Below are positions 21,091 to 33,373 of a DNA stretch of 33,403 nt, piece after piece. The stretch is from Sulfurimonas crateris. Its GTDB lineage: Bacteria > Campylobacterota > Campylobacteria > Campylobacterales > Sulfurimonadaceae. A program made the position numbers and the translations under genes. How positions within the stretch are numbered: position 1 is the stretch's first letter; every line of letters begins with the position of its first letter. Location of the stretch: NCBI GenBank assembly GCA_945883795.1, contig CAMCYC010000024.1:1-33403 (forward strand), given 5' to 3'. The notes under the pieces were generated by a model. It saw only the letters and a list, made by a program, of their open reading frames with translations. It ran no database searches and was not told the DNA's origin.

Positions 21091-21118
21091 CAATTATTCC
21101 ACCTTATAAAGTGCATGG

Positions 21119-21147
21119 ATTATACACAATATTTACTATAACATCAA
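21119..21147 (-). promoter_or_regulatory. Sigma-70-type promoter for the bioD operon
   Basis: On the minus strand TTGATG (21142-21147) and a perfect TATAAT (21119-21124) are separated by 17 bases, the best-formed -35/-10 pair in the window. It lies about 29 bases before the bioD ATG, so transcription should begin near 21112. It is divergent from the helicase promoter. Confidence 0.65.
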
Positions 21148-21197
21148 CTTAAGTTATTTTAAATATATCTAAGTTTAATTAATCTTTATGTAAGTTT

Positions 21198-21206
21198 TGA
21201 TATAAT
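21198..21206 (+). promoter_or_regulatory. Extended -10 promoter of the DEAD-box helicase gene
   Basis: TGA followed by TATAAT forms a perfect TGnTATAAT extended -10 with no clear -35. Transcription would begin near 21213 and give an untranslated leader of about 70 bases that contains marked inverted repeats. About 50 bases separate its -10 from the -35 of the divergent bioD promoter. Confidence 0.6.
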
Positions 21207-21221
21207 TCGCTAAATATTTGT

Positions 21222-21280
21222 AGGAGAAGATGCCTTAACCGAATCTGGTTAGCTTGTATCATCTCCTTAAATAAAAAGGA
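21222..21280 (+). promoter_or_regulatory. Structured 5' leader of the helicase mRNA, candidate translational switch
   Basis: AGGAGAAGATG (21222-21232) can pair with CATCTCCT (21260-21267) over 8 base pairs with a 3-base bulge. Inside this, TTAACC (21235-21240) and GGTTAG (21247-21252) form a 6-pair hairpin with a 6-base loop. In competition, TCCTT (21264-21268) can pair with AAGGA (21276-21280), which is the helicase ribosome-binding site, around a 7-base loop. The two folds share 21264-21267 and so exclude each other: one frees and the other hides the ribosome site. A two-codon frame ATG-CCT-TAA (21230-21238) lies in the outer stem behind an AGGAG. Pairings are seen in sequence; the switch is inferred. 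Confidence 0.5.
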
Positions 21281-21285
21281 TAATG

Positions 21286-22842
21286 ATGCAAGAAAATGCA
21301 CAAATAATGGCTCCAATAGATGAAGTGTCAATCACATTTGATGATTTAAATTTAAGAAAAGAAGTTCTCCAAGCAGTTAAATATGCGGGTTTTACAATTC
21401 CAAGCCCTATACAAGCTCAAGCAATTCCGTTTGTGTTAGCAGGTCGTGATATAGTTGGTCAAGCACATACTGGTACAGGTAAAACTGCAGCATTTGGTCT
21501 TCCAGCAATCTCAAACATGCACTTAAAAGGTGGTGTAGAAGTTTTAGTCATCACACCAACTCGTGAACTTGCTACTCAAGTTTCAGATGAACTTTTTAAA
21601 TATGGTAGAAATTTAGGTGTTAAAACGGTAACTGTTTATGGTGGTAGTTCTTACAATAGACAAATTGATTTAATTGAGAGAGGGGCTAGTATAGTTGTAG
21701 CAACTCCAGGTCGTCTTTTAGATATTCTCAAAAAGAATTTAGTGAAGGATTTTGCACCAACCTTAGTTGTTTTAGATGAAGCTGATGAGATGCTTGATAT
21801 GGGATTTTTGGATGATATCAATGAAATTTTTTCATACCTTCCAACAAATCGTCAAACACTGCTTTTTTCAGCAACAATGCCTCAACCTATTAAAACATTA
21901 GCTGCAAGAATTCTTAATAAACCTGAATTTATTTCGATTACAAAAGGTGAAACTACAAATACAGATATTGAACAATTTTATTATGTAATAGAAGAATCAG
22001 AAAGAGATGATGCAATTATTCGTCTTATGGATTCAGAAAATACAAAAAAATCAATTGTATTTTGTAGAACAAAAAGTGAAGTAGATAGACTTAGCAATGT
22101 ACTCTCAAGCGCTGGTTATTTAGCAAATGGTCTCCATGGAGATATGGAACAACGCCAAAGAGAAACTGTTATCAAAGGTTTTAAAAGCAACAGCGTAAAA
22201 GTTTTAGTTGCAACAGATGTGGCAGCTCGTGGTATTCATGTGGATAATATTTCGCATGTATTCAACTACCATATCCCTTTTGACCCAGAATCTTATGTTC
22301 ACCGTATTGGTAGAACTGGTCGTGCTGGTACAAAAGGAAAAGCAATTACACTTTTGACTCCACTAGAGTTCAAAGAGCTTCAAAGAATCAAACAAAAAGT
22401 TGGTACTTCAATGGAACATGCTTATGTTCCAAGCAAAACTGATTTAAGAAGCTCAACTATCAAAAATATTGTTAAAAATATTGAAGAGCAACATATCTAT
22501 GATGAAGCGCATAAAGTTCTAGATTTATTAAAAGAAGATATTGATGAAGAAACTATAATCTTTAAATTAATATCTATGATTTTAGACAAACAAGAGATAA
22601 AAGGACCAAATACTATCGGAATTTCTGCTGATAGAATGGAAGCTATTTTAGAAAGAGCAAGTCATAGAGGTGATAGTAGAAATCGAGGAAGAACTGGCAA
22701 TTACAAAGGAAACAACAGTAATAGTAGAAGTCGTTCTGGAAGTAGTAGTAACACTGGAAGTCGTGAAAGAACTCGTAGTGGCGGTAGTAGAAATGCTAGT
22801 GCTGGACGAAGCAGTAGCGGGTACAGAGGCAATAGAGACTAA
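21286..22842 (+). CDS. DEAD-box ATP-dependent RNA helicase (DeaD/CshA/RhlE type)
   Basis: The product, about 518 residues, is a cytoplasmic RNA helicase, likely acting in ribosome assembly, RNA decay or cold adaptation. The Q motif (GFTIPSPIQAQAI, about 35-47), motif I AHTGTGKT (about 60-67), PTREL, TPGRL, motif II DEAD (164-167), SAT (about 195-197), ARGIHVDN and HRIGRTGRAG are all intact. A low-complexity tail of about 55 residues rich in Arg, Ser, Gly and Asn follows; such tails bind RNA non-specifically. Two tandem ATGs occur at 21283 and 21286. I prefer the second because AAAGGA would be only two bases from the first. The tail codons (AGT, AGA, GGA repeats) create a long false frame in another register. 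No close gene lies upstream; a HIT gene follows by 76 bases. Confidence 0.95.
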   Translation: MQENAQIMAPIDEVSITFDDLNLRKEVLQAVKYAGFTIPSPIQAQAIPFVLAGRDIVGQAHTGTGKTAAFGLPAISNMHLKGGVEVLVITPTRELATQVSDELFKYGRNLGVKTVTVYGGSSYNRQIDLIERGASIVVATPGRLLDILKKNLVKDFAPTLVVLDEADEMLDMGFLDDINEIFSYLPTNRQTLLFSATMPQPIKTLAARILNKPEFISITKGETTNTDIEQFYYVIEESERDDAIIRLMDSENTKKSIVFCRTKSEVDRLSNVLSSAGYLANGLHGDMEQRQRETVIKGFKSNSVKVLVATDVAARGIHVDNISHVFNYHIPFDPESYVHRIGRTGRAGTKGKAITLLTPLEFKELQRIKQKVGTSMEHAYVPSKTDLRSSTIKNIVKNIEEQHIYDEAHKVLDLLKEDIDEETIIFKLISMILDKQEIKGPNTIGISADRMEAILERASHRGDSRNRGRTGNYKGNNSNSRSRSGSSSNTGSRERTRSGGSRNASAGRSSSGYRGNRD

Positions 22843-33256: not shown

Positions 33257-33373
33257 ACTAGGCAGCGACCTACATTTCCAACCCTGCAAGAGTCAGTATT
33301 ATGAGCGATGAGGGGCTTAGCTTCTGGGTTCGGAATGGAGCCAGGCGTTTCCCCCTCTCTATAGCCACCTAGA
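33257..33373 (-). rRNA. rrf: 5S ribosomal RNA
   Basis: The minus strand shows a complete 5S gene of about 117 bases. The 5' end CTAGGTGGC and the 3' end GCTGCCTAG pair to form helix I. Between them the conserved loop GGGGAAACGCCTGGCTCCAT and then TTCCGAACCCAGAAGCTAAG are clearly recognisable, and GGAAATGTAGGTCGC closes the 3' side. Ends are set by helix I and are good to a few bases. The sequence closely matches 5S genes of the Sulfurimonas/Campylobacter group. It is the last gene of an rRNA operon whose 23S gene would lie beyond the window's right edge. No clear GC-rich terminator follows; only T-rich DNA is seen between it and gmhA. Confidence 0.95.

Follow-up and report, generated by a model that had tools for sequence, protein, structure and literature searches.

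The mRNA leader of a DEAD-box RNA helicase gene in Sulfurimonas crateris can form two mutually exclusive helices, one of which hides the ribosome site and the start codon, as judged from folding calculations and from 128 aligned leaders. The comparison of related genomes indicates that this arrangement is very probably a conserved two-state translational switch across the genus. For the complete reading, namely a bistable leader that controls helicase translation in cis and is refolded by helicase catalysis, we estimate a probability of roughly 0.55. The window, that is, the whole stretch of DNA analyzed, comprises 33,403 nucleotides of contig CAMCYC010000024.1 (assembly GCA_945883795.1), which carries the helicase gene and is part of a 2.41-Mb genome assembled in 126 contigs. 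A 5S rRNA gene lies near the contig end (window 33257–33372, minus strand). The features of the helicase leader are as follows.

21201–21206, plus strand: predicted −10 box TATAAT of the helicase gene, read in the sequence; a −10-like hexamer is conserved.
21222–21233, plus strand: segment 1 (arm A, anti-sequestor), AGGAGAAGATGC, pairing with 21256–21267.
21235–21252, plus strand: inner hairpin enclosed by arms A and B, seen by folding, with a TTAACC/GGTTAG stem; its sequence and length differ among leaders.
21253–21268, plus strand: segment 2 (arm B, the shared strand), CTTGTATCATCTCCTT, partner either of arm A or of the ribosome site and start.
21276–21280, plus strand: Shine–Dalgarno sequence AAGGA, paired with 21264–21268 in the OFF fold (585 of 640 cells in 128 leaders).
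21283–21292, plus strand: segment 3, the start region ATGATGCAAG with both ATGs, paired with 21253–21262 in the OFF fold (1220 of 1280 cells in 128 leaders).
21297–21301, plus strand: segment 4, TGCAC in codons 4–6, able to pair with TGCA of the start (21287–21290) or with the end of arm A; its role is putative.
21283–22842, plus strand: gene for a CshA/DbpA-like DEAD-box RNA helicase of 519 amino acids, assigned from NCBIfam profile matches; the conserved start is probably 21286.

The top NCBIfam matches of the helicase were CshA (496.1 bits, cut-off 646) and DbpA (402.7 bits, cut-off 524). Because both scores fall below the respective cut-off, we name the protein only CshA/DbpA-like. Seven PF00270 matches with E ≤ 1e-20 were found in the same genome, five of them with E ≤ 1.1e-45. 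The adjoining gene is divergent and ends at position 21093. Since the first ATG (21283) is kept in only 104 of the 128 leaders of relatives, the second ATG at 21286 is probably the conserved start codon.

In the ON state, AGGAGA-A-GATGC (21222–21233) pairs with GTATC-A-TCTCCT (21256–21267) through 6 + 5 = 11 base pairs around a 1 × 1 A·A mismatch, leaving the Shine–Dalgarno sequence and the start codon free. A first-pass annotation of this DNA had placed the strings AGGAGAAGATG (21222–21232), CATCTCCT (21260–21267), TCCTT (21264–21268), and AAGGA (21276–21280) correctly and had also recognized the enclosed six-pair hairpin, TTAACC/GGTTAG, at 21235–21240/21247–21252. Its description of the outer stem as eight pairs with a 3-base bulge is better replaced by the 6 + 5 reading. 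When folded alone, positions 21213–21300 adopted the ON hairpin at −25 kcal/mol (z = −4.48; none of 200 dinucleotide shuffles was as low). In 97 of 128 leaders, the stretch between the arms had a folding energy below −1 kcal/mol.

In the OFF state, CTTGTATCAT (21253–21262) pairs with ATGATGCAAG (21283–21292) and TCCTT with AAGGA, giving a helix of 15 pairs in all that buries the Shine–Dalgarno sequence together with both ATGs. The TCCTT/AAGGA pairing proposed earlier is therefore real, but it represents only the five-pair tip of a helix that covers both start codons. Similarly, positions 21264–21267 are indeed shared by the two folds, but the true overlap is larger and extends over 21256–21267, except that 21261 is paired in OFF only and 21263 in ON only. 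Positions 21252–21300, from which arm A is omitted, folded into the OFF hairpin at −16.1 kcal/mol (z = −5.77; again none of 200 shuffles was as low). When the leader and 36 coding bases were dinucleotide-shuffled 1000 times, no shuffle equalled the 5′ half or both halves together, and seven equalled the 3′ half.

We searched 135 Sulfurimonas genomes at the DNA level with the leader as query (E ≤ 1), and a match, not always a strong one, was found in all 135. Thirty loci were aligned (alignment A1), and a covariance model, R1, was built from this alignment with the ON structure. The model was then run against 228 genomes of the family, consisting of the 135 genus members and 93 others. It detected exactly one match per genome in 129 of the 135 genus genomes. 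Five of the six genomes without a match also lacked a helicase match at E ≤ 1e-100, and the sixth (G112) matched only query residues 231–462, the start of the gene being missing. All 129 leaders run into the first codons of the helicase. Hence, the element resides in these 129 genomes on the message of the presumed regulator itself and in front of that gene only, which is the placement of an autogenous leader. A crude score flagged 10 of the 129 extracted leaders; all 129 were inspected by eye and kept.

With E values from 1.2e-4 to 0.006, R1 gave four weak hits in the 93 family genomes outside the genus; those in G153, G166, and G168 lie at helicase starts, and the one in G148 does not. In a phylum sample, 47 of 397 genomes had a match. 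Fourteen matches came from outside the family (E 1.9e-4 to 0.0097), and none of the 13 that we inspected by eye (L106–L118; G554 was left out) lay at the start of a DEAD-box gene. We treat the weak hits outside the genus as chance. Upstream of helicase orthologues in other genera of the family, different complementary arms were seen, namely AGGGCAC or AGGACAC with GTGTCCT in genus g7 (L122–L125), and GGACACC with GGTGTCC in genera g4 (L139, L146) and g2 (L140). The folding z-scores of leaders from other genera and families were mixed; as their start codons were guessed, these values serve for orientation only.

Base pairs were counted from arms aligned without gaps in 128 leaders. G049, the arms of which are not alignable, was left out, and so was the covariance-search alignment A2, in which long-insert leaders had been aligned piecemeal. 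Conservation of the stems in relatives had been set beforehand as a test, and both stems are kept in the 128 aligned leaders. The ON helix, with the A·A mismatch excluded, is paired in 1395 of 1408 cells (99.1%; 11 pairs in each leader), and the OFF helix in 1805 of 1920 (94.0%; 15 pairs). At least 10 of the 11 ON pairs are kept in 127 leaders, the remaining leader having 8; at least 12 of the 15 OFF pairs are kept in 123 leaders, and 10 or 11 in the other five, with a minimum of 10. The mismatch position holds A·A in 120 leaders, C·A in seven, and A·U in one. In slid registers, only 44–65% (ON) and 34–54% (OFF) of the cells paired. The genus comparison thus backs the earlier proposal of mutually exclusive folds over the ribosome site of the helicase.

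The sequence changes that do occur are mostly one-sided. One ON pair is A–U in 27 leaders, G–U in 88, G–C in 12, and unpaired in one; another is A–U in 20, G–U in 76, G–C in 31, and unpaired in one. In the core of arm B, GUAUC, U is replaced by C in 31 leaders and A by G in 39, giving all or part of GCGUC, and both pairings survive. With each partner, these two commonest core changes turn one wobble pair into a Watson–Crick pair and one Watson–Crick pair into a wobble. Other changes in arm B cost pairs. Its twelfth base is changed from U to C in 12 leaders, which gains a G–C pair in ON and costs the OFF pair in all 12; its tenth base is G in four leaders, with one pair lost in both folds; and its last base has no OFF partner in 32 of the 128.

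Covariation statistics were computed on the 94 distinct rows of the 128, using letter shuffles that ignore relatedness. The paired fraction exceeded that of all 1000 shuffles for both helices (ON, 98.84 vs. 98.03%; OFF, 93.40 vs. 92.85%). Taken together, the pair counts and the letter shuffles show conservation with compatible changes for both helices. Two-sided changes occurred in 2 of 1034 ON cells and 1 of 1410 OFF cells, values that were reached by 11 and 456, respectively, of 1000 shuffles in which relatedness is ignored. In some slid registers, two-sided cells were more numerous, their number rising to 12 for ON and 22 for OFF. The shuffle test on A1 alone (30 rows) was uninformative. 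Of the compensating changes that the first-pass annotation proposed to look for, compatible substitutions and pairing above the shuffled level were thus found, but two-sided exchanges are rare. From the alignments, we consider both complementarities to be strongly conserved and the covariation to be modest and supportive; it is not decisive because the arms vary little.

Both arms of G049 have other letters, and both folds nevertheless remain. Its 5′ part forms AAAAGA/TCTTTT plus AGGCA/TGCCT (−10.2 kcal/mol), and in its 3′ part the Shine–Dalgarno sequence is paired within TTTTGCCTT/AAGGCAAAA (−12.0 kcal/mol). Both halves together were equalled by none of 1000 shuffles, and singly by 12 and 35. 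In the full-length minimum (−19.2 kcal/mol), the start codon is buried and AAGG lies in a hairpin loop. Though it comes from a single genome, this is the pattern expected if selection acts on the architecture rather than on the letters.

In 121 of 129 leaders, 14 or 15 nt separate the −10 box from arm A. Therefore, the transcript start is expected upstream of arm A, at about 21212–21214 in the window and some 8 nt before the arm, in agreement with the earlier expectation that it does not lie downstream of 21232. A sigma-70 consensus scan did not have the TATAAT at 21201–21206 among its predictions because no −35-like hexamer fits. At the other end of the leader, AAGG ends 6 nt upstream of the ATG in 127 of 129 leaders, and the stretch between arms A and B ranges from 2 to 50 nt. 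Fixed ends with a free middle would fit a ligand-binding domain less well than a switch folding co-transcriptionally.

Two kinds of insertion were observed in the leaders. In G086 (L283), the −10 box and arm A are 71 nt apart owing to the insertion of a long inverted repeat, AAGTGCCAGTCCATA ... TATGGACTGGCACTT, and the switch downstream is intact. The linker from arm B to the Shine–Dalgarno sequence measures 26–34 nt in 20 of 129 leaders (e.g., L080, L083, and L088) and 4–13 nt in the other 109; in the examples read, the long linkers carry an extra hairpin such as AAGACTTTTAGAAGTCT.

A fourth segment may take part in the folding. The four pairs of TGCAC with TGCA of the start are present in 126, 126, 125, and 123 of 126 leaders, and those with the end of arm A in 125, 106, 126, and 61 of 126 (G025 and G045 were left out of these counts). 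The sequence suggests a layout of 1:2 + 3:4 versus 2:3 (+1:4) that acts at the start site. In the window (21286–21303), helicase codons 2–6 (CAA GAA AAT GCA CAA) belong to a stretch that is synonymously frozen throughout the genus, more so than the OFF helix requires. Ala-5 is encoded by GCA in 123 of 123 cases and Asn-4 by AAT in 118 of 120, compared with 48% and 49% in 55 gene bodies, the corresponding binomial values being naive. Early codons are commonly A-rich anyway.

Ensemble energies were calculated for the 128 leaders from nearest-neighbour estimates with each core helix forced; for G099, the forced ON pairs that fall outside the fragment were omitted. At 37°C, OFF was the lower fold in 112 leaders (mean difference 2.7 kcal/mol, s.d. 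2.5); at 5, 15, and 25°C, it was the lower one in 100, 103, and 105 leaders, respectively. Warming from 5 to 37°C moved the balance towards OFF in 54 leaders and towards ON in 74, the mean change being −0.15 kcal/mol. The single temperature direction that characterizes a switching-mode thermosensor is thus not seen across the 128 leaders in the nearest-neighbour model. In the window, the two folds lie within about 1.5 kcal/mol of each other, and the lower one varies with the fragment. With 36 coding bases, OFF was lower by 1.4 kcal/mol at 37°C and ON by 0.2 kcal/mol at 5°C; with 24 coding bases, ON was lower by 0.8 kcal/mol at 37°C, and ON is also the minimum in 21213–21300. In a direct path search in 127 leaders (G086, with its large insert before arm A, was left out), the median barrier from ON to OFF was 16.0 kcal/mol at 37°C, 17.1 kcal/mol at 25°C, and 20.2 kcal/mol at 10°C; these values are upper bounds, and rates derived from them mean little. 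In 106 of 128 leaders, strand exchange could start from a CTT/AAG toehold.

These values bear on a cold-responsive thermoswitch resembling cspA or lambda cIII, in which temperature alone would move the balance between ON and OFF. Bacterial helicases are often cold-induced, according to the available text of a study on Helicobacter pylori (PMC5874925). Furthermore, cooling from 37 to 5°C displaces the balance in the window by about 1.6 kcal/mol in favour of ON, and the ON-to-OFF barrier climbs in the cold. The temperature switch suggested in the first-pass annotation finds no support as a general rule, however, since the window's shift to ON upon cooling stands beside opposite directions in 54 and 74 of the 128 leaders. 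The slight preference for OFF, the lack of a consistent temperature direction, and the high barrier together argue against a plain thermometer and for an ON-to-OFF refolding that is driven by a factor. We therefore regard a thermoswitch as unlikely.

How such a factor might operate can be outlined from the order of the segments. Arms A and B would be transcribed first and would form the ON hairpin, with the Shine–Dalgarno sequence and the start codon open. Once the start region has been made, arm B could re-pair with it, yielding the OFF state with a hidden start. According to the calculated energies, the message would be laid down in the ON state, usually slightly uphill of OFF, and would be slow to convert alone. 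An RNA-remodelling protein, most likely the encoded helicase, would catalyze the step from ON to OFF. Ample helicase would then close its own message, and helicase that is scarce or hampered by cold would leave the message open. As a DEAD-box helicase is a natural catalyst of refolding and the controlled gene encodes one, negative feedback is the simplest way to close the circuit. We give about an even chance to the helicase itself being the trigger, that is, to autoregulation. In any case, the leader probably lets the cell set the amount of helicase made. More tentatively, the leader may sense helicase activity: the message would be kinetically locked in ON, and the helicase would report spare unwinding capacity by refolding it to the stabler OFF state. 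If so, helicase synthesis would go up in the cold, or when misfolded rRNA titrates the helicase, and neither a thermometer nor a ligand would be needed.

Another trans-acting factor, such as 30S availability, a ribosomal protein, CsrA, or an sRNA, might choose the fold instead of the helicase. Any strand-binding factor could act in this way, and AGGA-like motifs occur in arm A and in the ribosome site. The fact that the element precedes one gene only suits self-control better than a global factor, and for CsrA in particular the GGA of arm A is not kept, its fourth base being G in 100 of 128 leaders. A CsrA site in arm A was ruled out on this ground, and the involvement of one of the other factors appears as unlikely to us as the thermoswitch.

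Lower still we rank the idea that the 5′ hairpin mainly shields the message from 5′ decay, with the helicase and a degradosome partner lifting the shield and the pairing at the start being secondary. The position of arm A, about 8 nt past the expected transcript start, would fit such a role, as would the feedback of H. pylori RhpA and RNase J via the rnj 5′ UTR described in the available part of the report (PMC5874925). On this view, the pairing of arm B with the Shine–Dalgarno sequence and start codon, kept in 128 leaders, would have no explanation, which makes a decay shield quite improbable as the main function. It is less probable again that the pairings are conserved but passive and fix the translation level without a switching signal. 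The closeness of the two folds in energy would permit a fixed mixture, but two competing helices of 11 and 15 pairs are a costly solution where a weaker ribosome site would do. Finally, we give hardly any credence to a leader peptide that starts in arm A (AGGAGA..ATG) and exerts control by ribosome stalling: arm A of the window does resemble a ribosome site followed by ATG CCT TAA, but a usual ribosome site would need a longer spacing, and the codon in question is ATG in 57 leaders, GTG in 50, GTA in 11, ATA in nine, and GTT in one.

Several other candidates were examined and set aside. An attenuator with a leader peptide was rejected, as no short reading frame is conserved and the start codon is absent in at least 21 of 128 leaders. 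A scan for intrinsic terminators between 20500 and 21700 found none. The leader has no Rfam match at the gathering threshold and no conserved domain in the 2–50 nt between the arms, and a metabolite riboswitch was rejected; below threshold, the best weak leader match had an E value of 1.2, and weak matches across 21100–21400 had E ≥ 0.17. Arm B also resembles the 3′ end of 16S rRNA. Since any strand that pairs with a Shine–Dalgarno sequence would resemble it, we do not claim mimicry.

On the basis of the sequence comparisons, we regard the genus-wide bistable leader as real, its anatomy as well supported, and its role in feedback as plausible and testable. Several bacterial DEAD-box helicases have been reported to regulate themselves; to our knowledge, the molecular step involved is still little understood. 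With a short leader that carries two conserved, exclusive folds at the helicase's own start, one could directly test whether the enzyme senses its activity through the refolding of its message. In addition, the evolution of two folds on one strand could be studied in the series of 129 natural variants, one of which differs entirely in its arms.

Trp-type attenuators are likewise four-segment leaders, in which helices 1:2 + 3:4 compete with 2:3. Unlike these, the Sulfurimonas leader would act on the start site, without a terminator or a conserved leader peptide. Our searches of the open-licence literature turned up no description of such a leader in Sulfurimonas, as judged from titles or abstracts. 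In the available text of a transcription-start survey of Campylobacter jejuni, TPP is the only metabolite riboswitch reported, and the word helicase is absent (PMC3847290). The accessible passages on rhlE of Caulobacter crescentus describe a structured 186-nt UTR with several predicted stem-loops, a higher expression of the transcriptional fusion in the rhlE null strain, and a greatly increased expression of a translational fusion, apparently at 10°C (PMC5472812). This system resembles ours as a DEAD-box helicase gene with a structured leader and post-transcriptional control, whereas those passages describe no mutually exclusive pair of folds, and the phylum is a different one (PMC5472812). 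CrhR of Synechocystis regulates itself, partly post-transcriptionally and in response to temperature; the part of the article available describes transcript and protein half-life, in contrast, and no leader switch (PMC3485376). In H. pylori, a DEAD-box helicase of related bacteria takes part in a feedback through a 5′ UTR, but, as far as the available text goes, the leader concerned is that of rnj, and RhpA is not induced at 33°C (PMC5874925). The calculated balance of the Sulfurimonas leader, which has no consistent temperature direction, distinguishes it from the thermosensors of lambda cIII and E. coli cspA. With these it shares the central feature, as outlined in the accessible part of the source, of two mRNA structures, one of which hides the ribosome site (PMC8346122).
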